In this document: positions 7,658-42,585 of the stretch, one piece after another
Layout of the letters: every line of letters begins with the position of its first letter
Position numbering within the stretch: position 1 is the stretch's first letter
DNA from: Armatimonadota bacterium
GTDB lineage: Bacteria; Armatimonadota; UBA5829; DTJY01
Assembly (NCBI GenBank): GCA_023511795.1
Contig: JAIMAU010000004.1
Span: forward strand, 1 to 64,000
Direction: 5' to 3'
DNA: 64,000 bases
Made by a program: the position numbers and the translations under genes
Notes under the pieces: model-generated
Told to the model about the DNA's origin: nothing
The model's database searches: none
Seen by the model: only the letters and a program-made list of their open reading frames with translations

Positions 7658-8491
7658 TCAAATTATATCTGCAAAATCGCGTTCCATTTTCCTGAAATGA
7701 CGAAGCCCGGTAAACAAAACAAGTAAGGTCAGAGCCACGGAAAGTGCAAAACCTGGCCAGTATAGATTAACATTACTCCCAATGATCGCCCATCGGAAAC
7801 CATCTATTACTCCTACCATAGGGTTGGCTGAATACAACAGTCTCCATTTTTCAGGAATGATATTACTGCTGAAGCCGACGGGTGAAATATATAAACCCAT
7901 CTGCGTAAGGAATGGGACAATGTATCGAAAATCACGGTACTTCACATTTAGAGCCGACGCCCACAATCCAACACCAAAAGCTGAGAGCACCGCCAGAGCT
8001 AAAAAAGCTGGCAGAACAATTATTCGCCAGCTAGGAACAAAATGGTAGAAAACCATTAAAAAGCAAAGAATCACGAATGAAAGAAAGAAATCGATTAGGT
8101 TTACAATTACTGTGCTTGCAGGAATTATTACACGCGGAAAATAAACCTTTGTGATTAAGCCAGCACTAGCAACTACACTCCCGCTACAATCATTGAGTGA
8201 ACCGGCAAACAACTGCCATGGTAGCATAGCGGTGAAAACGAGAATTGGATACGGCACGCCTCCAGAAGGGAGTTTAGCAAGCTTTCCAAAAATTATAGAA
8301 AAGACAACCATTGTTAAAACTGGTCTAAGTACACTCCAGGCAACTCCTATCACCGTTTGCTTGTACCTCACAAGAACATCTCGCCATGATAAGAAAAAGA
8401 AAAGCTCCCGGTAGCGCCATAGGTCAGCCCAATAATGGTGCTCTTCGCGTCCCGCCTCAATTACCAGTGTATGCTGGAACTTATGAGTCAA
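7658..8491 (-). CDS. wzm: O-antigen ABC transporter permease (Wzm type)
   Basis: A 277-residue ABC-2 type membrane protein. The cytoplasmic N-terminus HYWADLWRYRELFFFLSWRD is followed by VRYKQTVIGVAWSVLRPVL, the hallmark of polysaccharide/teichoic-acid export permeases, and then about six hydrophobic segments. With the downstream Wzt-type ATPase it would flip undecaprenyl-linked glycan across the inner membrane. The start is TTG at 8491, supported by GGAG six bases upstream; no in-frame ATG precedes a plausible N-terminus. It is the first gene of the minus-strand polysaccharide operon. Confidence 0.92.
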   Translation of the reverse strand: MTHKFQHTLVIEAGREEHHYWADLWRYRELFFFLSWRDVLVRYKQTVIGVAWSVLRPVLTMVVFSIIFGKLAKLPSGGVPYPILVFTAMLPWQLFAGSLNDCSGSVVASAGLITKVYFPRVIIPASTVIVNLIDFFLSFVILCFLMVFYHFVPSWRIIVLPAFLALAVLSAFGVGLWASALNVKYRDFRYIVPFLTQMGLYISPVGFSSNIIPEKWRLLYSANPMVGVIDGFRWAIIGSNVNLYWPGFALSVALTLLVLFTGLRHFRKMERDFADII

Positions 8492-8801
8492 AGTTTACTC
8501 CGTCTGAATTAGACCTTCGTTTGTAATGTGCAATGGCCTAGCGGTAACAAACAATGCCCAGAGGAACATGCCTGGCGTCCTTATAGACCTTTACCCTTAG
8601 CCTTTACTATACAAAACATATATTCCAAAGCGAATTTTAAATGTTTTCTATCCATTAACTGCTACTTTTAAAACAAATGGGCAAGCATTTTGATTGTAGC
8701 CTAACAACAACCAAAAGGCGTCAATTACTTGCTTATTCAATGTTTCCCTGTTTCTCAATGTGGGAATATCACTTAAAAATTAAACCAGCGGGAGGCCTAG
8801 T
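8492..8801. other. Divergent intergenic region between wzm and a secreted deacetylase gene
   Basis: About 310 AT-rich bases separate two divergent genes, so promoters for both directions should lie here. On the minus strand a TATAGT at 8606-8611 could be a -10 for wzm, but no convincing -35 accompanies it. On the plus strand only the GGGAGG at 8790-8795 is clear. No ORF, tRNA or terminator was found. Confidence 0.5.
8790..8795 (+). promoter_or_regulatory. Shine-Dalgarno GGGAGG that fixes a CTG start
   Basis: GGGAGG lies six bases before CTG at 8802. Between the in-frame TAA at 8781 and TTG at 8895 there is no ATG, GTG or TTG in this frame, yet the frame encodes a textbook signal peptide. This makes CTG the best start. 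Confidence 0.7.
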
Positions 8802-11708
8802 CTGAGTAGGTACTATAACCGGAAATTAGCAAGTTTTGTATTACTCCTCATTTTATGTAGCCTAACACCAATCACGCTTCATGCACAGCGAGTATTGGTA
8901 GTTACAACGGAGCAATATTTACCCGAGCAATGGGCGTTACCAATCTATAACGGCGAATTCATAATAGCCGACCTTGTCGGAGCAGGATTACCATTTGATG
9001 TAGTCACATATGGCAGATTTGTAAATATGGATTTAGGCGACCATGACATAATCTTCCTCAGCGGTCATACATCACCCACAACAGTTAGCGCAGTTTATGC
9101 AAAATGCCAGGCCGCATTATCTGAAGGTCGAAAGATATTTATAAACGGCGAACTGCCATACATGCGTTTTTCAACGGAAGGCATACTTCGGGAATACATA
9201 AGATTCGGCTTAGACCTCTTCAACGTACAAGATGGTGGCCTTCAATCTGTATCTGGTACACCTATTGTGCCATCGATTATTGAGAAAGACCCAATCGTTA
9301 CGGCGGTCTCTCTGCCGCCTACTCAATTCAACACGTTTCTTTTTACTACCCAACCCGATATGACCATAAAGTTTGGGGAACATGCAGTTGGGTTCCTTTA
9401 CCCACAAGGAGGAGCTATAGATGCTTATAGTAACCATACTTTACATTTGTTAGACTATGGGAAGGTTGCAAACTATCTTCGTTATGGAAATCGTCCTCCA
9501 ATAGGGTTTGCAAATGACCGTATAGAAGGCACTCCAATCGTATCCATTGAAATCCATGCTGATCTCACAAACAATCTGCCCGCAATTGATGCTTTGGAAC
9601 AAATAGCAACCCAGTACAATATAAAAATGACAGCGCTACTTGTTTATAATTTTCTAACCCCTGAATCAATCGAGAAATGGAATAACATTAGTCCACTTTT
9701 TAGCATCGGCTCACATTCTAGATCGCACCATTGGGATTGGACGCCGCGTGATATTTATGTTGAAGTCATAAGCGCCATTGCCGACCAACGAATACTAATT
9801 CCCAGAACGATTGACTACTTTAATTTTTCAGGAATGATGAATCCTACTTTACAACAGATTGAACAACTCTACCCCACAAGCATACTTTTTGGAGCCCGTG
9901 GTGCCGACCCCAGGAATTGCAAGCTCCCCTCTGGCGAAGACATGATTCTTCAGGGGATTCCAATCAAAAGGCATTGGTTTCAAACTCTTGCGCAATCCAC
10001 CACTGTACCGTTTTGCCTATCACAAACGATGCCAGACGACATCACACTTTGGCTATATGGATACAACTACTATGAAGAACTAAGAAAAGTTTACCAAGCA
10101 AATCTAAAATACGGCTTATACACATACGGCTTTATCCACGATTTAGAGTTCGCACCAGACAGCAACTACTATACTGATGGCGTCCCTCTAGCCGATCTCG
10201 TTAGAGCCGGTATTGCATACATGGTTGACCAAGGCGCGAAGTTTATACCCACAGAAGACCTTGTCCGCAGACTTCGGGACTTCATAGGGGGCCGTATTTT
10301 CTATACCTCTAACCCCGATGGAAGCGTAACTGTTACCGCAATCAGACCGGAAGGAGTTTTAAATGAGATAAAGGTAGGCGTTAATGGCGACCGAGTACCC
10401 TATGCCTATGGAGAATCCGTATTGTCTCAGCACCAAACAGAGGAGCGAGTTTATATTACTCTAAAACCAGAGACCACTAGCACCATAACTATCCGATGGT
10501 TAAAACCTGGCACACCACTGCCCCCCGTTGTTACTGCTCCCAAAGGATATATATCTAATGCGTCCATTGCAGAGTGGGAGGAAGCCGAGAAACAAGATGC
10601 AATTTATGAATACCAATATGCCGTTGGAACTCAACCTGGCAGCACAGATGCGCTTGATTGGACTTCTGCCGGAACCTCAAATTCCGCCGTGCTGACCGAT
10701 GCAAATTTAACCCATGGCGAAACTTATTATGTATCCGTAAGAGCTCGGTATTCAGATGGCGACTGGAGCGACCCTGGATCTTCAGAAGCCCTTATGGCTG
10801 ACCTCACACCACCGCCACCACCATCAGTCACCGACGATGGCGTAGAACAAATCTCCACTTCTTGTCTTCGTGCAAACTGGACAACTTTCGATCCTGAATC
10901 TGGAATATCATGCTATCAATATGCTGTTGGCACTACGCCAGGCTCGATGGATATAAAAGACTGGACATTGACCGATGAAACCCAAATTGAACTAACCGAT
11001 TTGAACCTTACACCAGGTGAGACATATTACATTTCCATCAAGGCATGCAATGGCTCAAACCTCTGGGGATTGCCTGGAGTTTCTGATGGGATATACATCC
11101 TACCTTGTGATTCTGTAACAATTGGCACTGCCCGACGGTCGCCAGATGGAAGGCCAGTCCATCTTTCAAACGGCATCGTTACAGTAGTATTTCAAGATGA
11201 ATTTTATATTGAGGACGCCAACAGGGCATCAGGAATAAAAATACTATCCAATGCGCTTGTAAACGTGGGTGATATTGTAGAAGTCAAAGGGAAAGTAACA
11301 GGTAATGAAGTGGAACGGTTCATAACTAACGCAGAAGTAACATCTATTGGTACTGGTGCCGCGATCGAACCAATTTTTATGTGCAACTATTCAGTGGCGG
11401 GAGCCGCCGATGATATAGTCCCTGGTGCTACTGGTAGCATAAGTCTGAATAATGTTGGCTTATTAATAACAACTACAGGGCGAATTAAAGCAATAGCTTC
11501 GGACCATATTTATATTTCCGACGGTTCCGTTCCCAGAGAAGGAGTAACTCGGTCAGGAATAAAGGTTCTAGTATCTAATACAACCAACTTGGAGATAGGA
11601 ATGCTAGTAGCAGTTACAGGCATTAGTAATCTTGAAAAAGAAGGCGAAACCCTAATGCGAGTAGTTCGCACCCGCGCACCCACTGATATAGCTATCCTTG
11701 CACCCTAA
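8802..11708 (+). CDS. Secreted multidomain protein: GATase-like, polysaccharide-deacetylase-like, two FN3, two OB-fold-like repeats
   Basis: About 968 residues from a CTG start. Residues 2-28 form a signal peptide (SRYYNRKLASFVLLLILCS, ending HA before QRVL). Next come a Rossmann/GATase-like region (about 30-200), a NodB-like barrel whose metal motif HSRSHH follows a SIEIHAD strand (about 240-480), two fibronectin type III domains (570-760, both with QYAVGT-x-PGS), and two OB-fold-like repeats. The first OB repeat has SPDGRPVHL, FYIED and GDIVEVKGKV; the second has HIYISDGS and GMLVAVTGI. It is probably an extracellular or periplasmic glycan-acting protein. Its TAA overlaps the stop of mqnC on the other strand. 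Confidence 0.8.
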   Translation: MSRYYNRKLASFVLLLILCSLTPITLHAQRVLVVTTEQYLPEQWALPIYNGEFIIADLVGAGLPFDVVTYGRFVNMDLGDHDIIFLSGHTSPTTVSAVYAKCQAALSEGRKIFINGELPYMRFSTEGILREYIRFGLDLFNVQDGGLQSVSGTPIVPSIIEKDPIVTAVSLPPTQFNTFLFTTQPDMTIKFGEHAVGFLYPQGGAIDAYSNHTLHLLDYGKVANYLRYGNRPPIGFANDRIEGTPIVSIEIHADLTNNLPAIDALEQIATQYNIKMTALLVYNFLTPESIEKWNNISPLFSIGSHSRSHHWDWTPRDIYVEVISAIADQRILIPRTIDYFNFSGMMNPTLQQIEQLYPTSILFGARGADPRNCKLPSGEDMILQGIPIKRHWFQTLAQSTTVPFCLSQTMPDDITLWLYGYNYYEELRKVYQANLKYGLYTYGFIHDLEFAPDSNYYTDGVPLADLVRAGIAYMVDQGAKFIPTEDLVRRLRDFIGGRIFYTSNPDGSVTVTAIRPEGVLNEIKVGVNGDRVPYAYGESVLSQHQTEERVYITLKPETTSTITIRWLKPGTPLPPVVTAPKGYISNASIAEWEEAEKQDAIYEYQYAVGTQPGSTDALDWTSAGTSNSAVLTDANLTHGETYYVSVRARYSDGDWSDPGSSEALMADLTPPPPPSVTDDGVEQISTSCLRANWTTFDPESGISCYQYAVGTTPGSMDIKDWTLTDETQIELTDLNLTPGETYYISIKACNGSNLWGLPGVSDGIYILPCDSVTIGTARRSPDGRPVHLSNGIVTVVFQDEFYIEDANRASGIKILSNALVNVGDIVEVKGKVTGNEVERFITNAEVTSIGTGAAIEPIFMCNYSVAGAADDIVPGATGSISLNNVGLLITTTGRIKAIASDHIYISDGSVPREGVTRSGIKVLVSNTTNLEIGMLVAVTGISNLEKEGETLMRVVRTRAPTDIAILAP

Positions 11709-12796
11709 GCGCTTTTATGTAGAATATTCGGTGGCTTTTCAAGAAGACGATAATACGTATCTCTTTTGCAAGGTACAAAACCAGCTTCTTGAATTGCCGA
11801 CCGAATCTCATCCTCAGTTAGCCGAAAGTTAACACCTGCCGCAGCCACCACATTTTCTTCAATCATAGTGCCACCAAGATCATTTGCTCCGAAAAACAAG
11901 GCAATTTGTCCAATTTTTAACCCTTGTGTGACCCATGACGCTTGAATGTTAATAAAATTATCCAAAAACAGACGAGAAATCGCGAGAGTCCGAAGATAGT
12001 CATGACCACCTACACTTGAGCCATTCAAAGCAGTGTTCAAAGGTTGAAATGTCCATGGGATAAATGCTGTAAAACCGCCAGTTCGGTCTTGCAAATTGCG
12101 GATTCTTGCCAAATGCTCGATTCGGTTGGCATATGTCTCGATATGGCCAAACATCATTGTAGCTGTTGTAGGCATGCCAAGCAGCTGGGCTGTTTCCATC
12201 ACCTTAATCCACTCATCAGCAGTGCACTTATTGGGGCTGACCAAAACTCTAGGACCATCCGCTAGTATTTCAGCCCCGCCGCCTGGAAGCGAATCTAAGC
12301 CAGCATCCTTAAGTCGGCGAATGGTTTCTTCAATGCTTATATTCGAAATCCGCGCTATGTGCACAATCTCTGGTGGAGAAAAAGAATGCAAGTGGATATT
12401 GAATCGCTCCTTTATCCTGCGAACGAGTGACTCGTAGTATTCAATCTTTAGCGTTGGGTGCAATCCACCTTGCATAAGGATTTGGGTCGCACCTAGTTCA
12501 ACTGCCTCCGCAATTTTTCTGTGGATTTCATCTTTAGAGAGCAAATAAGAATCTGGTGAATCGGCGCTCCGAAAAAAGGCGCAAAACTTGCATTTCGATA
12601 CACAAATATTTGTGTAATTGATGTTTCGGTCGCAAACATAAGTCCTGTATGGCTCCGGATGCATCCGCCTGCAAACCGCATCAGCAGCTAAACCCAGCTC
12701 TGCAAGAGAAGCCTTCTCAAAAAGAAGATTTCCCTCTTCGCAGCTAATCCTGTTTCCCTCAACTGCCTTATCCAAAATTGCTAGAACAGCCTTCAT
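11705..12796 (-). CDS. mqnC: Cyclic dehypoxanthine futalosine synthase (radical SAM), MqnC
   Basis: A radical SAM enzyme of the futalosine menaquinone pathway that cyclises dehypoxanthine futalosine. The cluster motif CVSKCKFCAF (C-x3-C-x2-C) follows the family phrase NINYTN. DSLPGGGAEILADGPR and ASWVTQGLKIGQIALFFGAN with GGTMIEENVV are MqnC hallmarks that distinguish it from MqnE. ATG at 12796 is chosen, four bases after the mqnA stop, giving MKAVLAILDKAVEGNRIS. An in-frame GTG at 12823 would overlap mqnA by 23 bases. Neither has a strong ribosome site. It is the last gene of the mqn operon. Confidence 0.93.
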   Translation of the reverse strand: MKAVLAILDKAVEGNRISCEEGNLLFEKASLAELGLAADAVCRRMHPEPYRTYVCDRNINYTNICVSKCKFCAFFRSADSPDSYLLSKDEIHRKIAEAVELGATQILMQGGLHPTLKIEYYESLVRRIKERFNIHLHSFSPPEIVHIARISNISIEETIRRLKDAGLDSLPGGGAEILADGPRVLVSPNKCTADEWIKVMETAQLLGMPTTATMMFGHIETYANRIEHLARIRNLQDRTGGFTAFIPWTFQPLNTALNGSSVGGHDYLRTLAISRLFLDNFINIQASWVTQGLKIGQIALFFGANDLGGTMIEENVVAAAGVNFRLTEDEIRSAIQEAGFVPCKRDTYYRLLEKPPNILHKSA

Positions 12797-12800
12797 ATGG

Positions 12801-13598
12801 TTAGAGCTCTGTTGCGTCACCAAAAAACTTTATTGGAACTGAGGGAATATTCACTCCCAGCTGGCGAATTTTCCCCTGGAAAACCTCTAAAGATTCCAGA
12901 TGCTCCTTAGTAAGATTATAGTCCATAATCTCGCTAAGGTAATGATAGCATTTCTCATAAGATAGCCCTAGTCTCTGGGATTCCGATTCAGCGATTGTGC
13001 TCAGTGTATCAAGCCCATTCTGTTTAGCTCTCTGCAGTATTTTTGTTAGCTCTGATGAAGCCATTTCAGGATTGACAGCCCAAACAGCAAATACAAAAGG
13101 GAGGCGAGTCAGCGAAAACCATTCTGAACCCAAGTCTATCTCAGCCCAACGTCCTGGCGGAACTTTCATCGTTGTATCGCCAATGACTACTGCTGCATCA
13201 CAAACACTCAGCATTTCATCTACCCGTGGCTGCATTGGTATAAATTGGGGCGTCAGATTGTATTGTTCACGAAGTATAACCTTTGCAAGTAAGACAGATG
13301 TAAGCGAGCTCGTGTCGAGTGCAACCCTCTTGGCTTTCTCGATTTTGTTCTTGTAGAAAATCTTGACACTTTCTGCTATTCCGCGACATGAAATACTTAT
13401 TTTAGGTACGATTTGCAGGTTTGGATTCATAAAGCAAGCAACCGATGATACTAATCCCGCAGCAATTTCATCTTCCCTGAGCATGTCTGCCAACCTGGAG
13501 GGAACATCAACAACGAGTTCAACCTTCGATTCAGAATCCAGACCATAAGTAAGAGGTTTGCCATTTAAATATGGAATTGTCCCAAGCCTAAATTTCAA
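12801..13598 (-). CDS. mqnA: Chorismate dehydratase MqnA
   Basis: A 265-residue periplasmic-binding-protein-fold enzyme that dehydrates chorismate to 3-[(1-carboxyvinyl)oxy]benzoate, the first step of the futalosine route. FRLGTIPYLNGKPLTYGL, VDVPSRLADML, AAGLVSSVA, ALDTSSLTSVLLAKV and DAAVVIGDTTM are family signatures. The start is TTG at 13598, overlapping the mqnE stop (TTGA), with purine-rich GAGGTAAGG just upstream. The order mqnE-mqnA-mqnC places sequential pathway steps in one transcript. Confidence 0.93.
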   Translation of the reverse strand: MKFRLGTIPYLNGKPLTYGLDSESKVELVVDVPSRLADMLREDEIAAGLVSSVACFMNPNLQIVPKISISCRGIAESVKIFYKNKIEKAKRVALDTSSLTSVLLAKVILREQYNLTPQFIPMQPRVDEMLSVCDAAVVIGDTTMKVPPGRWAEIDLGSEWFSLTRLPFVFAVWAVNPEMASSELTKILQRAKQNGLDTLSTIAESESQRLGLSYEKCYHYLSEIMDYNLTKEHLESLEVFQGKIRQLGVNIPSVPIKFFGDATEL

Positions 13599-14692
13599 TG
13601 CCTTACCTCATTGTAAAGCGTATCGCGCTCCACGGGAACCGTGCCTGTCTCGGAGATTAACCGCGTAATTTCGGCTACCGACAGGCCCTCAGGGGTTTCA
13701 GCGCCAGCCGAATGAGTGATTTTTTCCTCAACAACAGTGCCGTCGAAGTCATCAGCTCCGAAGCTCAGAGCAACTTGGGCAAGTTTTAACCCAAACATAA
13801 TCCAGAAAACCTTAATATGCGGAAAATTGTCAAGCATCAAGCGCGATACTGCTATGATTTTTAGGTCCTCAACGCCCGACGACCGCTTACTTTGATGCTC
13901 AAGCTCAGTACCTTTTGGATGGAATGAGAGAGGGATAAATGCCAGAAATCCAGAGGTCTCGTCTTGAAGTTCTCGAAGGCGCATCAAATGGTCGATTGTT
14001 TCTTCTGGCGTTTCAACATGATGATAAAGCATGGTTGCATTGCTTTTAATTCCTAATTCATGCGCAGTTCGCATTACATCCAGCCATCCCTCTGCGGGCA
14101 GCTTCTCAGCACATAACTGAGCCCGCACACGCGGTGAAAACACCTCGGCTCCACCTCCAGGAAGCGACCCAAGCCCAGCATCACGAAGTTTGATTAGAAC
14201 ATCCCTCACACTCAATCCAGATATACGCGAGAAATGTTCAACCTCAACCGCAGTAAATGCCTGCAGATGAACATCCGGCATTCGCTTTTTTAGCTCAGAA
14301 AGCATCATCAGGTAGTAATCAAAAGGCAAGCTGGGATGGAGGCCACCAACTATGTGCAATTCAGTAAAATCAACTTCGCGCTTGGCGACCTCAGCCTTTT
14401 CTATTACCTCTTCAATTGTAAGTGTATATGCTCCGGGCTCGCTTTCGCTTTTCGAGAATGCGCAGAAGCGGCAGCGGTTCTTGCAAACATTCGTGTAATT
14501 GATATGGCGATTGACAACATAGTAAGTTCGATTACTATTTAACCGCCGCCTTATGACGTCTGCCATCCAACCAATTACAGGAAGATTGTTAGATTTTAGT
14601 AGCCGCACACCGTCGTCGAAGCTGAGACGCACCCCCTGCTCTACCTTTTCAACAATGTCGCCAATGTCAGATTCAAGTGCTAATCTTCTCAC
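13595..14692 (-). CDS. mqnE: Aminofutalosine synthase MqnE (radical SAM)
   Basis: A 365-residue radical SAM enzyme that joins the MqnA product to SAM-derived adenosine to give aminodeoxyfutalosine. The cluster motif is CKNRCRFCAF after HINYTNVC. LHIVGGLHPSLPFDYY, GSLPGGGAEVFSPRVR and FGADDFDGTVVEEKITH match MqnE rather than MqnC. It starts at GTG (14692), overlapping the TGA of the upstream UbiA-family gene. An aminofutalosine deaminase, MqnB and MqnD are not in this window and must be elsewhere. Confidence 0.93.
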   Translation of the reverse strand: MRRLALESDIGDIVEKVEQGVRLSFDDGVRLLKSNNLPVIGWMADVIRRRLNSNRTYYVVNRHINYTNVCKNRCRFCAFSKSESEPGAYTLTIEEVIEKAEVAKREVDFTELHIVGGLHPSLPFDYYLMMLSELKKRMPDVHLQAFTAVEVEHFSRISGLSVRDVLIKLRDAGLGSLPGGGAEVFSPRVRAQLCAEKLPAEGWLDVMRTAHELGIKSNATMLYHHVETPEETIDHLMRLRELQDETSGFLAFIPLSFHPKGTELEHQSKRSSGVEDLKIIAVSRLMLDNFPHIKVFWIMFGLKLAQVALSFGADDFDGTVVEEKITHSAGAETPEGLSVAEITRLISETGTVPVERDTLYNEVRH

Positions 14693-15576
14693 ATCATGCC
14701 CTTTCTAATTAGGAGGTCGAGCACTGTAAATATCAGGAGTCCAATGCTAACCAAACCGTTGGTGTTGAAGAAAGCTACATCTACTTTGCTGATATCATGC
14801 GGTTTTACAAGGCTCTGCTCATATATCAATAACGCCGCTGCCGCTGCCGTCCCTACAAAATACATTCCCCCAAGAGACATTACGGCACCAAATAGAACAA
14901 GCAGTGTAATTGCAGCAAAATGGAAAAGTCTTGACACCATTAGCGACCGACGAATACCCAAAAAGCGCGGAATTGAAAATAATCCTTGTGCACGATCAAA
15001 TTCGATGTCCTGCAAAGCATAAATTATGTCAAAGCCTGCAGTCCAAAACATTACTGCTGCCGAAAGCACGATTGGCGCAAGATTAAACTGACCTCTAACA
15101 GCAATCCATGCGCCAACAGGAGCAATTCCAAGCGCTAAACCAAGTACAAGATGCGTAAGCGAGGTAAAACGCTTTGTATATGAATATCCAAGGATTACGA
15201 TAAGAGCGACCGGAGAAAGTGCAAATGCAAGTGGATTCAGCATATATGCGGCAAAGACGAACGCAGCGGCTGAAAAAAGCGTGAACAACCATACTTCGCT
15301 AAGACTCAAAACACCTCTTGGAAGCGCTCTATCCGCGGTGCGTGGGTTCAACCTATCGTATGCAATATCAGCAATGCGATTGAATGCCATTGCTGAACTG
15401 CGCGCTCCAACCATTGCTACCAGTATCCAGAAAATAACCCTTCCTTCAGGCAAGCCATCGGCTGCAAGCACCATGCTTATTAAGGCAAAAGGGAGGGCGA
15501 AAACCGTGTGTTCAAATTTTATCATCTCTAGGATTGTCTTTAGCTTTCGCAATCCTCGAAATGCAAGATACTTCAT
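14689..15576 (-). CDS. mqnP: UbiA-family prenyltransferase of menaquinone synthesis (MqnP-like)
   Basis: A 295-residue integral membrane prenyltransferase with about eight hydrophobic helices. The two Asp-rich diphosphate/Mg sites are visible as AFNRIADIAYDRLNPRT and YALQDIEFDRAQGLFSIP. In futalosine operons this enzyme attaches the polyprenyl tail to the 1,4-dihydroxy-6-naphthoate ring. ATG at 15576 forms an ATGA overlap with the ubiX stop and has GGGAGAGAG upstream. A GTG at 15594 is less likely. Confidence 0.88.
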   Translation of the reverse strand: MKYLAFRGLRKLKTILEMIKFEHTVFALPFALISMVLAADGLPEGRVIFWILVAMVGARSSAMAFNRIADIAYDRLNPRTADRALPRGVLSLSEVWLFTLFSAAAFVFAAYMLNPLAFALSPVALIVILGYSYTKRFTSLTHLVLGLALGIAPVGAWIAVRGQFNLAPIVLSAAVMFWTAGFDIIYALQDIEFDRAQGLFSIPRFLGIRRSLMVSRLFHFAAITLLVLFGAVMSLGGMYFVGTAAAAALLIYEQSLVKPHDISKVDVAFFNTNGLVSIGLLIFTVLDLLIRKGMM

Positions 15577-16184
15577 TTGCTTGCTCTCTCCCACTCAGGA
15601 AGCGCCACATGTGTGATTCCCAATTGCCGCATCACACGGCAGACAACAAAGGAAACTAGGTCTTCTATTGTCTTCGGATTGTGGTAGAATCCCGGAGCCG
15701 CAGGAAGTATGGTAGCCCCAGCCTCCGCAAGCATGGTGAGGTTCCTCAGGTGAATTAAGTTAAGCGGGGTTTCGCGAATCACAAGGATAAGAGGCCTCCG
15801 TTCTTTTAGACACACATCCGCCGCGCGCGTTACCAAATCATTTGAAACACCGCTAGCAATTCGCCCTACGGTGCCCATCGAACATGGAATAATTACCATG
15901 CCTTCGTGTTTTACCGACCCACTGGAAGGAGGAGCAGCAAGGTCAGTCGGAGAAAAGATTTCAACTTTCTTGTAATATCCACCTAATAGCGACTGAGCAT
16001 CTACTTTATCTGTTGGAAAATCGATTCCAAGTTCAGTTTTAATGACAGCAGTAGCATTCTCGGTCAACGTAAGGTATATCTTCTCATAATATTCCAAAAT
16101 TGCCTCAAGGAAGCGAACAGCGTAGATGCTCCCGCTTGCACCTGTTATCGCCATTACCAATTTTCGCTCGTCTTCGTTTACCAT
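15573..16184 (-). CDS. ubiX: UbiX-like flavin prenyltransferase
   Basis: About 203 residues. LVMAITGASGSIYAVRFLEA is the FMN-binding start of UbiX/Pad1 proteins. IIPCSMGTVGRIASGVSNDL, RRPLILVIRETPLNLIHL and ILPAAPGFYHNPKTI are the other conserved blocks. It makes prenylated FMN, the cofactor needed by the UbiD-type decarboxylase encoded directly upstream. ATG at 16184 lies two bases after the ubiD stop; longer frames extending into ubiD are not supported. The coupling supports a menaquinone role (MqnM-like). Confidence 0.9.
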   Translation of the reverse strand: MVNEDERKLVMAITGASGSIYAVRFLEAILEYYEKIYLTLTENATAVIKTELGIDFPTDKVDAQSLLGGYYKKVEIFSPTDLAAPPSSGSVKHEGMVIIPCSMGTVGRIASGVSNDLVTRAADVCLKERRPLILVIRETPLNLIHLRNLTMLAEAGATILPAAPGFYHNPKTIEDLVSFVVCRVMRQLGITHVALPEWERASK

Positions 16185-36672: not shown

Positions 36673-39594
36673 CTACGGTGGCGGAATTATAAGCTCGAGG
36701 CAGTTGCCATGCGACTGCAGCCAGTAACCCCGCCATGGCTCAAACTTAGTTGAGTCTGGCCAATCGTCTGGCAAACCAGCGGTCTTCAGCGAACAGGTTG
36801 CAGAGTCCCACCACCACAAAGTAGCTGAAATCCATCCCTCTGATATTGCCTCTTCTATAGAACGCGTCTTGGGCTCAACCGCGTTCGGATTGAATACTTC
36901 ACAATTGCTTATATCTTGAGAGGTCGTCCACGGATATCCAATGATAGTCCATGGGGATTCTAAAGGAGCTGCTTGCGCCAGCTTAATGTGACGAGCAACC
37001 GTAGGCTGAGCACCCATGCATTTGATTGTAGTAGGTTCAGTTGCGAAGTAGAAATACCCTTCGTCAGCGCTGATATTCCCAAACGCCTCAGGATCCCAAG
37101 AGCTATACACAACCCATGTGGCTGTGTCCTTATCCCATCGGAAAAGTTTTGAATCTATGTCTTGGTTACGGAAGACTATATGGGGACTTGGATTAGCCGG
37201 CTCAAGAGGAATTGAAATCAAATTCCAACCAGGGTTAATTGTACCCACTGGACTCACTACCTCTTCGGGTGCAATAATTTCCGGCACTGTGACTAATTCG
37301 TAGCCTCTATTTCTTAGTTCGTTAATTATTGTAGGCATAGCAGCTTCGGTATTAGCCACAGTGCAATGATAAAGCATAATGCACCCATTGGTTGCTGCAT
37401 TCAGCGTACGATTAATAATCTCCTCCGTTGACGCATTCCACGATGCATCGCCACAATCTTCTGTCCAATATATGCTTCTAAAGCCTGCGTTCGCCGCTGC
37501 AGCAAGAACATGTGAATCGGTATACCCATAAGGTGCTCTAAAATAAGAATGGGTATGGTGGCCAGTAATGCCATACAAGATATCATCTGTAACGCTCAAC
37601 TGCCACGCAATCTGTTCGTCGGTACAGTCACGCAAATCCGGATGGTCGTATGTATGATTGCCAATGTGATTACCGTTCGCAGCAATCTGAGCTACTTGCG
37701 AGGGTTGAGTTTGAGCGACTAGACCAGTGATAAAGAAAGTGCAGAAAACCTTTTGGTCTTTTAGGAATTGGATTAGACCAGAACGAATTGATGCCGTGCC
37801 TGCGTCGAATGTCAGAGCCATTTGGTGGCGAGAAGTATTGCCAATAGATACTTCTGTGAAGTCCTTACCAGGTGTAAGCGCCCAGTCCTCATTTGACGGC
37901 GTTGAAACTCGAGTAGCATCGAAAGCCCGTACACGATAATAATAGTTTGTCGCTGGGTTCACACTTACATCGGAATATGTAGTTACCCCTGCATTAACTA
38001 TGGCTATTTGCTGAAAGAGGCCGTTCGGCCCCACCATTCGTTCAATCCTAAAGCCTAATTCATCCAGTGACCTATCAGTCCAAGTAAGGTCGACACGAGT
38101 TTCCGAAATGGGCGTCGCAACAAGGTCAGTTGGTGCTGCAAGGCCAGGAGTTGTAACCAACGCCTCATTCGAATAAGCAGAGTTTCCTGCTTCTTGATAA
38201 GCACATACACGGTAGTAGTAAGTTTGACCTGAGCTGAGCCCTGAATCAGTATAGGTTGTTACACTCTCACCAACATTTGCAATAAAAGTGTAAGCACCTC
38301 CAGCTATCTTGCGCTCAATACGGAAGCCATATTCATCGTTTGAATTGTCCTGCCATTGCAGATGAACCTGGGTCTCCGACAAGGCAGTTGCCACAAGATT
38401 ACTCGGTGGATTTGCAGCAGGAGGTGTACCTCTCAAATTGCCATAAACATATCCGTCAAAAGAACCAATAACAACACTTCCATCAGCAGCAATTGCTGGG
38501 GATGAGTAACCACTTCCCCTCATTAGGAAGTGCCATTTTTTCGTGCCATTCGAGTTTAAAGCCCAGACATAGCCATCAAATGTGCTAAAAATTATCGTGC
38601 CATCGGCGGTAACCGCTGGCGAAGATCGAATGTCCGAACCTGTTTCGAAATGCCAGATTTCCGCACCGGTTGCTGGGTCAAGCGCATACAGCGTGCCATA
38701 ATTCGAACCTACGTAGACTGTACCGTTAGGACCAATGGCTGGCGAGGAAGTAGTACTGCCATTTTTATAGCCTGCCAAGAACTTCCATATAAGGCTACCA
38801 TCCGAAGCGTTGATAGCATAACAATAACCATCATATGCACCAAAAAATATTTTGGAGCCATCCGAACTAATAGCTGGCGAACTGAGAATGCCATCACCCG
38901 CAGAATAATTCCACAAAATGCTGCCATTAGTTGGATTTACTGCATACAATTTTGAATTACTGCTACCTACATATATTTTTCCATCTGGTCCCACCGCAGG
39001 CGAAGACATATGCATGTCGCCCAATGTACAAGACCACTTTCTTGTACCGTTTGGATTGAGAGCATAAAGTTTTCCATCCCTCGAGCCAATATATATCGTG
39101 CCATCGGGGGCAACAGCAGGAGAACCTGTAATGTCGCCCCCCGTTAAATAGCTCCATTTTAACGTCCCATTTGAATTAAAAGCATACAACCTATCGCTGT
39201 TGCTTCCAATGTAGATTGTTCCGTCGGATGCTATTGCTGGAGATGAACGTGTGGAGGACCCTATGGAAGCCGACCATTTAAATGTTCCATTGCTGTTTAA
39301 AGCATAAAGTGAAGAGCTGCCGCCGATATATATTGTGCCGTCTGGACCTATTGCCGGCGATGAAAGCCCACCACCAACACTATATTTCCAGTAAGTACCA
39401 CCCGGAGCAGGGTCATGGCTCGGGCTCGCACCCGTATGTCGAAGGTCATGGCGAAACATAGGCCAAGGGGAGTTTGCCAGCTGTGCAATTGCGCTAGCTG
39501 AACAAACAACCAATGTTGCAACCAAAAACATCTTAACAGGTTTTACAAAACTTGCCTTTACCATCTTCAAACAGTCCTTTTTCAAAGAATGCAA
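36673..39594 (-). CDS. Secreted PQQ-type beta-propeller / FN3 / NodB polysaccharide deacetylase protein (copy B)
   Basis: A 973-residue protein with a signal peptide ending near SASAIA. The linker SPWPMFRHDLRHTGASP leads into eight propeller repeats, each with S-P-A-I/V-x-x-D-G-T-I-Y-I-G. Two FN3 domains follow (about 395-580). The NodB domain (about 590-760) has MALTFDAGTASI, NHIGNHTYDHPDL with both metal histidines, and FRAPYGYTD. The end has INPGWNLISIPLEP, a possible surface or sorting domain. The TFDDG motif is TFDAG, as in some deacetylase subfamilies. It is seven bases after copy A. An internal ATG at 39564 may be the true start. Confidence 0.82.
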   Translation of the reverse strand: MHSLKKDCLKMVKASFVKPVKMFLVATLVVCSASAIAQLANSPWPMFRHDLRHTGASPSHDPAPGGTYWKYSVGGGLSSPAIGPDGTIYIGGSSSLYALNSNGTFKWSASIGSSTRSSPAIASDGTIYIGSNSDRLYAFNSNGTLKWSYLTGGDITGSPAVAPDGTIYIGSRDGKLYALNPNGTRKWSCTLGDMHMSSPAVGPDGKIYVGSSNSKLYAVNPTNGSILWNYSAGDGILSSPAISSDGSKIFFGAYDGYCYAINASDGSLIWKFLAGYKNGSTTSSPAIGPNGTVYVGSNYGTLYALDPATGAEIWHFETGSDIRSSPAVTADGTIIFSTFDGYVWALNSNGTKKWHFLMRGSGYSSPAIAADGSVVIGSFDGYVYGNLRGTPPAANPPSNLVATALSETQVHLQWQDNSNDEYGFRIERKIAGGAYTFIANVGESVTTYTDSGLSSGQTYYYRVCAYQEAGNSAYSNEALVTTPGLAAPTDLVATPISETRVDLTWTDRSLDELGFRIERMVGPNGLFQQIAIVNAGVTTYSDVSVNPATNYYYRVRAFDATRVSTPSNEDWALTPGKDFTEVSIGNTSRHQMALTFDAGTASIRSGLIQFLKDQKVFCTFFITGLVAQTQPSQVAQIAANGNHIGNHTYDHPDLRDCTDEQIAWQLSVTDDILYGITGHHTHSYFRAPYGYTDSHVLAAAANAGFRSIYWTEDCGDASWNASTEEIINRTLNAATNGCIMLYHCTVANTEAAMPTIINELRNRGYELVTVPEIIAPEEVVSPVGTINPGWNLISIPLEPANPSPHIVFRNQDIDSKLFRWDKDTATWVVYSSWDPEAFGNISADEGYFYFATEPTTIKCMGAQPTVARHIKLAQAAPLESPWTIIGYPWTTSQDISNCEVFNPNAVEPKTRSIEEAISEGWISATLWWWDSATCSLKTAGLPDDWPDSTKFEPWRGYWLQSHGNCLELIIPPP

Positions 39595-39600
39595 ATACTT

Positions 39601-42495
39601 TTATGGCTTTGGGATTATAAGATCCAAGCCATTTGTAAAAGATTGAACACAATAACCACGCCAGGGCTCCAGTTGCGTTGTGTCAGGCCAATCATCCGGC
39701 AAGCCTACTGTTCGAAGAGAACCACAGGCCGAGTCCCACCACCAAAATGTGCTCAAAATCCAGCCAGACGCCGCTGCCTCTGCAATTGGCCGTTCTTTGG
39801 AGTCCGTAGCATTTGGATTATTTACACTGCAGTTGCTTATCGGCTGAGCTATTGAAAACGGATAGCCTATTACCGTCCACTGAACAGAAGATGGCGATTT
39901 CTGGGCAAGTTTGATGTGGCGAGCAGCTGAGGGTTGGGCACCTGCGCACTTTATTATTACCGGCGTAGTGGTATAGAGCCAGTAGCCTTCGTCTGGACTA
40001 ATGGTACCGAATGTTTCAACATCCCATGAGTCAAAGGAAAAGTAGCTCACAAAATCCTTATCCCACCGGTATAAATTACCGTCAATTTCCACGTTACGAA
40101 AAACGACAAGAGGATTAGGGTTGGCAGGTTCGGTAGGAATCGAAATCAGATTCCATCCAGGGTTTATCAAGCCAGCTGGACTTGTGACGACTTCTGGTGC
40201 AAGTATCTCAGGAACGGTGACAAGCTCGTAGCCTCTATTTCTTAGCTCAGTAATTATAGTTGGCATGGCGATTTCCGTGTTTTCCGGGCTACAGTGGTAT
40301 AACATAATGCAACCATTTCTTGCATTGCTAAGTGTATTGTTGATAATTTGCTCCACAGTCCAGCCACCAAAGTCCCCTCCACCTGCTGTGCATGCGATAT
40401 CTCGATAACCCACGCTTTGCGCAAGTGCAAGTACCCGCTCGTCTCTATCGAGACCCGGCGCTCTGAAATATGGCCTAGCATGGTGGCCACATATTGAATA
40501 TAACACGTCATCTGTTTTCGTAAGTTGATAGATAACTTCCTCATCGCTACAGGTTGTGAGGTTGGGATGGGTGTACGTGCGATTTCCGATGTAGTGCCCA
40601 TCAACTGCAGCTTGGACAACATTCCACGGCTCGGCTTCGGCCACTTTGCCAGTGATGAAAAATGTACTATAGACTTTATACTGCCTTAAGATGTCAAGCA
40701 AACCGGGACGGATTGGCGTTACTCCAGCATCAAACGTCAGTGCCATCTGCTTCCTTGAGGTATTGCCCAATGTTACGTCGGAAAAAACCATACCATGGGT
40801 TTGCGCCCATGCTTCGTTGGAATATATAGAATATCTCATCGCGTCAAAACTCCGAATGCGGTAGTAATATGTTTCTGCGCGAGCAAGTCCCATGTCGGTA
40901 TAAGACGTCACGTTAGGACCAACAACTGCAATTTGGCGAAAATGTCCATTTGGCCCCGTCATTCGCTCAATTGCAAAGCCTAGCTCGGTTGCAGACCAAT
41001 CTCTCCAAGTGAGACTAACCTCTGACTCTGATATACCAACTGCTACCAAATCAGTTGGCGCGGCCAATCCAGGCATAGTAACACACGCTTCGTTTGTGTA
41101 TCCAGAGTTGCCGCCCTCCTGATAGGCACATACCCGATAGCAGTATGTCAAACCACTACCAACGCCAGAATCATCATAAGAGGTAACACCAGCTCCAACT
41201 ACTGCTACCAAAGTAAAGTTAAGGTTAGGTACAAGCCGCCGCTCAATTCTAAAGCCATATTCATTATTGGAGTTATCTTGCCATTGAAGATGAACTTGGG
41301 TTTCAGAAATTGCGGCAGCCGTGAGGTTGCTCGGCGGATTGGCAGCAGGAGGTGTTCCCCTCAAGCCGCCATATACATAACCATCGGTTGCGTCAACGAC
41401 AACAGTACCATCTGCAGAAATCGCCGGGGAAGCATAAATGCCACTTTTAGCAAGAAACCGCCATTTTAGGGTGCCGTTTGGATTGAGAGCATACAGGTAG
41501 CCATCCCATGTCCCAAAATATATCGTACCATCCGCACTAACTGCAGGCGACGAGCGAATGTCTGAACCTGTTTCAAATCGCCAAATCTCAGTCCCAACTG
41601 GAGAAATTGCATGGAGCGTCCCGTAATTCGAGCCTATGTAGATTGTACCGTCAGGAGCGATAGCAGGAGAAGACGAAGTGCTTCCAGATTTAAGCGCAAT
41701 AGGAAATGTCCAAAGCAGTGTGCTGTTTTTGTTAACTGCATAGAGCTTTCGGTCCCACGAAGAAAAATATATAGTGTTTCCATCTGCTGTAATTGCTGGT
41801 GAGCTCAAGACTTCGGCACCGGTAGGAAAACGCCATTTTTCAGAACCATCTGGATTGATTGCATAGAGGTTTTTGTCATAACTGCCTACGTAAATTGTCC
41901 CATCAGGCCCGACTGCCGGCGATGAAGTATGCACACTAGTGCCGCACTGCGTCGCCCATTTTAGCGTTCCATCGGGGTTTATTGCATACAACTTACCATC
42001 CCTTGAGCCGACATAAACAGTTCCATCTGGTCCGATTGCCGGAGAACTTGTTACATCACCCCCCGTTAGATAACTCCATTTTACAGTGCCGTTGGGGTTG
42101 ACAGCATAGAGCATGTCATTGGTTGAGCCGACATATACCGTTCCATCTGCTGCAATTGCCGGACTTGAGCGATCTACGGTGCCGATTAAGCATTTCCACT
42201 TTAGCCTGCCATCTGGGTACAAAGCATTTAGATATGAACCAGCGCCGATGTAAATAGTGCCGTCAGGCCCGATTGCACAAGATCCGTACCCACCACCCGT
42301 ATAATATTTCCAGAAGGTTGAAGCCATAGGTGGGTCATGGATTGGACTTGCACCCGTGTGTCGAAGGTCATGGCGAAACATCGGCCAAGGGGAGTTTGCT
42401 AACTGAGAATAGGCAAAATTAGCTAAAAACAACGATAACACGCAACTAACTAGGAAGGGGAGTACCATTTGAGCGCAGTAGCACTTTTTGCACAT
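39601..42495 (-). CDS. Secreted PQQ-type beta-propeller / FN3 / NodB-like protein (copy A, altered metal site)
   Basis: A 964-residue paralog with the same domain order as copy B: signal peptide ending near FAYS, SPWPMFRHDLRHTGASP, eight propeller repeats, two FN3 domains, NodB-like region and INPGWNLISIPTEP ending. In the NodB region MALTFDAGVTPI is kept, but the metal motif reads GNRTYTHPNL, where the first histidine is arginine. The R-x-P-Y-G-Y motif has become FRAPGLDRD. Deacetylase activity is therefore doubtful, and the domain may only bind glycan. A consensus-like promoter lies upstream. It is the first gene of a two-gene operon with copy B. Confidence 0.82.
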   Translation of the reverse strand: MCKKCYCAQMVLPFLVSCVLSLFLANFAYSQLANSPWPMFRHDLRHTGASPIHDPPMASTFWKYYTGGGYGSCAIGPDGTIYIGAGSYLNALYPDGRLKWKCLIGTVDRSSPAIAADGTVYVGSTNDMLYAVNPNGTVKWSYLTGGDVTSSPAIGPDGTVYVGSRDGKLYAINPDGTLKWATQCGTSVHTSSPAVGPDGTIYVGSYDKNLYAINPDGSEKWRFPTGAEVLSSPAITADGNTIYFSSWDRKLYAVNKNSTLLWTFPIALKSGSTSSSPAIAPDGTIYIGSNYGTLHAISPVGTEIWRFETGSDIRSSPAVSADGTIYFGTWDGYLYALNPNGTLKWRFLAKSGIYASPAISADGTVVVDATDGYVYGGLRGTPPAANPPSNLTAAAISETQVHLQWQDNSNNEYGFRIERRLVPNLNFTLVAVVGAGVTSYDDSGVGSGLTYCYRVCAYQEGGNSGYTNEACVTMPGLAAPTDLVAVGISESEVSLTWRDWSATELGFAIERMTGPNGHFRQIAVVGPNVTSYTDMGLARAETYYYRIRSFDAMRYSIYSNEAWAQTHGMVFSDVTLGNTSRKQMALTFDAGVTPIRPGLLDILRQYKVYSTFFITGKVAEAEPWNVVQAAVDGHYIGNRTYTHPNLTTCSDEEVIYQLTKTDDVLYSICGHHARPYFRAPGLDRDERVLALAQSVGYRDIACTAGGGDFGGWTVEQIINNTLSNARNGCIMLYHCSPENTEIAMPTIITELRNRGYELVTVPEILAPEVVTSPAGLINPGWNLISIPTEPANPNPLVVFRNVEIDGNLYRWDKDFVSYFSFDSWDVETFGTISPDEGYWLYTTTPVIIKCAGAQPSAARHIKLAQKSPSSVQWTVIGYPFSIAQPISNCSVNNPNATDSKERPIAEAAASGWILSTFWWWDSACGSLRTVGLPDDWPDTTQLEPWRGYCVQSFTNGLDLIIPKP

Positions 42496-42585
42496 TGCCT
42501 AGCTCCTTTTCTCTGAAGGAGTTGCTACCCTACGCCAAGCCTTCCATGGTATGGTCGAGGGTAAAATGGGAGAAATTGTTTATAT

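Follow-up and report, generated by a model that had tools for sequence, protein, structure and literature searches.

A conserved CTG is the probable start codon of a large secreted protein in an Armatimonadota genus

A gene for a 968-residue secreted protein in an Armatimonadota bacterium is probably translated from a CUG codon at position 8802 (we put the probability at roughly 0.86), where a 30S subunit placed by a Shine-Dalgarno (SD) sequence would initiate with fMet initiator tRNA. The gene lies in a window of 64,000 nucleotides (contig JAIMAU010000004.1, positions 1 to 64,000). A first-pass annotation had proposed this CTG as the likely start of a large secreted protein, and the proposal is now supported by conservation in a sister species, by ATG in more distant relatives and by the lack of any other start. 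CTG is almost never used as a start codon by bacteria; translation table 11 allows CUG starts, and to our knowledge comparative evidence rarely backs them. The present case adds an example to a known rarity rather than a new mechanism, and it provides a clean, conserved CTG with ATG-bearing relatives for comparison. Gene finders that accept only ATG, GTG and TTG would call the TTG at 8895, with the result that the signal peptide is lost and the protein is misplaced to the cytoplasm.

Read directly from the sequence, the frame comprises 974 codons, is opened by a TAA and ends at 11708 on the forward strand (Table 1). The letters after the TAA run ACC AGC GGG AGG CCT AGT CTG AGT AGG TAC TAT AAC CGG ... 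GTA TTG, and between 8784 and the TTG at 8895 this reading finds no in-frame ATG, GTG or TTG, as had been claimed; the GGGAGG reported six bases ahead of the CTG is likewise present. Pairing of this GGGAGG with the 3' end of the 16S rRNA (GGATCACCTCCTTTCT) was calculated at -9 to -10 kcal/mol, such that CTG 8802 has, at a suitable distance, a match to the organism's own anti-SD. For comparison, of 1807 CTG triplets counted across the window, 42 (2.3%) are preceded by a 5-nt SD match at a spacing of 4–9, which gives the rate expected by chance. Within the frame, moreover, a full signal peptide is obtained only from CTG 8802.

Table 1. Positions of the features discussed, in window coordinates.
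Feature	Position	Strand	Basis
Conserved leader; 6 of its 176 bases differ between the species	8626..8801	+	Two-species comparison
Upstream ORF, 42 codons, ATGs at 8677, 8740 and 8758; TGA overlaps the CTG as CTGA; putative leader peptide	8677..8805	+	Open in both species
In-frame TAA that opens the frame	8781..8783	+	Sequence; same TAA in sister species
Shine-Dalgarno GGGAGG, 6-nt spacer CCTAGT to the CTG	8790..8795	+	Identical in sister species; complementary to 16S 3' end
CTG, inferred start codon	8802..8804	+	Sole near-cognate codon ahead of the signal peptide; identical in sister species; ATG in four relatives
Complete CDS of 968 aa read from the CTG; lone gene flanked by two opposed neighbours	8802..11708	+	Frame intact; interspecies dN/dS 0.17
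Signal peptide (M)SRYYNRKLASFVLLLILCSLTPITLHA, with probable cleavage before Q29	8802..8885	+	Hydropathy; equivalents in four relatives
TTG, first canonical start	8895..8897	+	No SD; a start here loses the signal peptide and cuts the conserved RVLVVTT
Fibronectin type III domain	10842..11057	+	PF00041, E 1.4e-6, above curated cut-off
C-terminal module, also present in about 19 further open frames elsewhere in the genome	11139..11696	+	Genome comparison

Translation from the CTG gives an N-terminus, (M)SRYYNRKLASFVLLLILCSLTPITLHA, that is followed by QRVLVV with a cleavage-like site, LHA|Q. By simple hydropathy it has the charged n-region (net charge +3), the hydrophobic core (mean Kyte-Doolittle value 3.2 over 10 residues) and the small residues before the cleavage site that are expected of a Sec signal. 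The 31 codons ahead of TTG 8895 thus encode a textbook Sec signal peptide in unbroken join with the mature protein, and the claim that a complete signal peptide is joined directly to the mature protein is borne out by translation and hydropathy. Between the two species discussed below, the stretch coding for the signal peptide holds two synonymous and three nonsynonymous differences, too few alone to prove coding. The gene itself is intact and under purifying selection; its overall dN/dS is about 0.17, and the N-terminal domain has a value of 0.10.

A genome search for relatives found the gene in another species of the same genus (G001), in two other genera of the same family (G003 and G004, the latter with two tandem copies) and in a genus of another family of the same class (G244), while scans of public genome contigs returned the G004 gene again and no further homologue. 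The sister species G001 is ∼94.5% identical to the window in DNA, its synonymous sites differing by about 15% (a divergence of about 0.17), and from 8776 to 8818, spanning TAA-ACCAGC-GGGAGG-CCTAGT-CTG-AGTAGG, it shows no difference. At the synonymous rate, the absence of differences over this ∼44-base block from TAA through SD to CTG has a probability of ∼5e-4. The four homologous genes outside the genus each carry an ATG ahead of their own signal peptide, 26–33 residues from the conserved RVL(V/L)VTT, and the corresponding distance from the CTG here is 29 residues. No relative within the genus has a conserved start elsewhere, the four outside having ATG at the equivalent place, and in the two species of the genus, which are the only carriers of the CTG, the functional N-terminus lacks any other possible start. 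Since the homologues have ATG before an equivalent signal peptide, the CTG would be a derived replacement; most simply, ATG changed to CTG before the two known species of the genus separated, the direction of the change being inferred.

The region ahead of the CTG is also conserved. The leader shows its six differences where ∼28 would be expected at the synonymous rate; compared with the other intergenic stretches of the window this is somewhat fewer than usual, with p ∼0.005 for a stretch chosen after the fact. Together with an upstream ORF that ends in CTGA, the leader hints at regulation or coupling. Ribosomes may translate the upstream ORF, terminate at the CTGA and reinitiate on the CUG, which would refine the proposed CUG initiation and keep the same start; if true, a poor start codon would be enabled and expression would depend on the leader. 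This is supported by conservation of the CTGA overlap in two species, by the low divergence of the leader and by the location of five of the six interspecies differences in the upstream ORF at third positions (p ∼0.018 before correction for the choice of frame). However, none of the upstream ATGs is preceded by an SD, half of the differences alter the amino acid, the relatives' genes have no visible homologue of the upstream ORF ahead of them and the leader stands out only mildly from typical intergenic divergence, and we consider reinitiation unlikely on balance. The arrangement resembles gene pairs with a -4 overlap (ATGA type, served by termination-reinitiation) in that an upstream stop overlaps the start, but differs from them in that the upstream frame is a short putative ORF and not a known gene. 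The neighbour upstream (7658–8491) is divergent and reads as an ABC-2 type permease, and the neighbour downstream (11705–12823) is on the opposite strand, so that the gene stands alone and is thus without an upstream operon gene for coupling.

A further suggestion, which we regard as unlikely, is that the CUG has been kept on purpose, in which case leader, upstream ORF (CTGA) and CUG would form a translational control element with output set by coupling or by the stringency of IF3; such control is known for infC, and here it would act on an exported protein. The leader and intergenic region had no Rfam match to a riboswitch or other known RNA, no sigma-70-like promoter was found in the intergenic region, and the genome holds no second copy of the upstream element. 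Predicted RNA structure near the start is weak and differs between the two species. Near 8743–8748 there is a UUUCCC for which both the SD GGGAGG and a nearby GGGAA are potential pairing partners, a possible switch.

Initiation at the TTG, yielding a cytoplasmic protein, or at a different near-cognate codon, for example ATT 8850, is very unlikely. TTG does serve regularly as a start in this genome; however, the one at 8895 has no SD and, besides removing the signal peptide as the first-pass annotation had stated, a start there would cut a RVLVVTT block that is conserved in all homologues, and ATT 8850 lies inside the hydrophobic core so that the charged n-region would be lost. Very unlikely as well is a start at one of the upstream ATGs (8677, 8740 or 8758) followed by a -1 shift near GTCTGA to give a longer N-terminus: neither species has a stop within the upstream frame, which terminates right at the CTG and carries the third-position bias described above, but the junction GGC CTA GTC TGA holds no slippery heptamer, the ATGs lack an SD, the relatives have no such extension and the signal peptide would end up buried behind the predicted extension. 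A sequencing or assembly error at 8802, or a decayed gene that has lost its start, is equally improbable, for although both genomes are draft assemblies, the separate sister genome has identical letters, so an error would need to have occurred twice, and both species keep the 968-codon frame intact under purifying selection, which makes error or decay unlikely.

Our reading of initiation at CUG 8802 involves no unusual machinery. A candidate explanation by an altered initiation apparatus was rejected, as the 16S 3' end contains CCTCC and has a normal anti-SD, the genome encodes an initiator-type tRNA with a CAT anticodon and the GGG/CCC stem, and infC is complete, the single TAG reported in it being its normal stop. 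We propose that the strong SD, six bases away, would position the 30S subunit over the CUG, that the ordinary initiator tRNA would read it as fMet with a first-position mismatch, and that this SD-directed initiation would proceed at reduced efficiency to give a 968-residue product with a Sec signal peptide. Retention of the CTG after the change from ATG implies that low or controlled output may be sufficient or wanted.

Usage of CTG across the lineage was also considered and rejected. In a survey of CTGs with an SD of at least 5 nt ahead of the first canonical start, no other gene needing CTG was seen among 304 ORFs in 400 kb or among the genes of the window, so the CTG start looks gene-specific, a single exception among the genes sampled. 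Near-cognate initiation as such appears to be accepted in the lineage. In both species infC has no ATG, GTG or TTG ahead of its conserved N-terminus and only an ATA after GAGGTGA, so infC of this genus likely starts at ATA, as a second near-cognate start in the organism. This infC lies at G000:C6 (locus L076, reverse strand, around position 1494) and at locus L078 in G001, and the ATA is also seen in other genomes of the family, there with a TTG or GTG two or three codons upstream. The gene studied here resembles infC, which encodes IF3 and has an AUU or AUA start, in placing a near-cognate start behind an SD. The near-cognate start of infC serves IF3 autoregulation, whereas no such role is known for the CTG-start gene.

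Only 2 of 61,358 ancestral ATG starts switched to CTG in a published reconstruction, which also found that weak start codons tend to pair with stronger or more conserved SDs (PMC5622118), a tendency that the strong GGGAGG fits. CUG was an inefficient start in vitro with both wild-type and variant initiator tRNA, and CUG complexes were less stable than those on AUG, GUG or UUG (PMC11497404), while in a mycobacterial selection CTG behind an SD was not enriched (PMC4633059). As in the rare CUG-initiated genes on record (PMC11005335, PMC5622118), fMet-tRNA would read the CUG, which in this gene follows a clear SD. Riboproteogenomics in Salmonella identified four CUG-initiated proteoforms (PMC11005335); unlike those alternative N-terminal forms, the present CUG is the only codon from which this large, intact secreted protein could start, and it is recognised in two species from sequence alone.

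Searches of Pfam, NCBIfam and the PDB gave no credible match for the N-terminal 530 residues of the protein, and the predicted structure of the N-terminal 560 residues has a pLDDT of 33. An identity as a NodB/CE4 polysaccharide deacetylase, prompted by a GSHSRSH motif, found no support, as none of six homologues has a Pfam match to PF01522 and a profile comparison with the PF01522 domains of the window itself was negative. The C-terminal module spans ∼170–190 residues, and the query has no Pfam match there. Elsewhere in the window, two adjacent paralogous genes of ∼970 codons each (36676–42498, reverse strand) both combine a PQQ-type beta-propeller with fibronectin III and polysaccharide deacetylase domains. 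Downstream of the CTG-start gene, the reverse strand from 11705 to 15594 carries a cluster resembling the futalosine (menaquinone) pathway, whose members, recognised by their translations, are two related radical SAM enzymes, an MqnA-like protein and a UbiA-like prenyltransferase.
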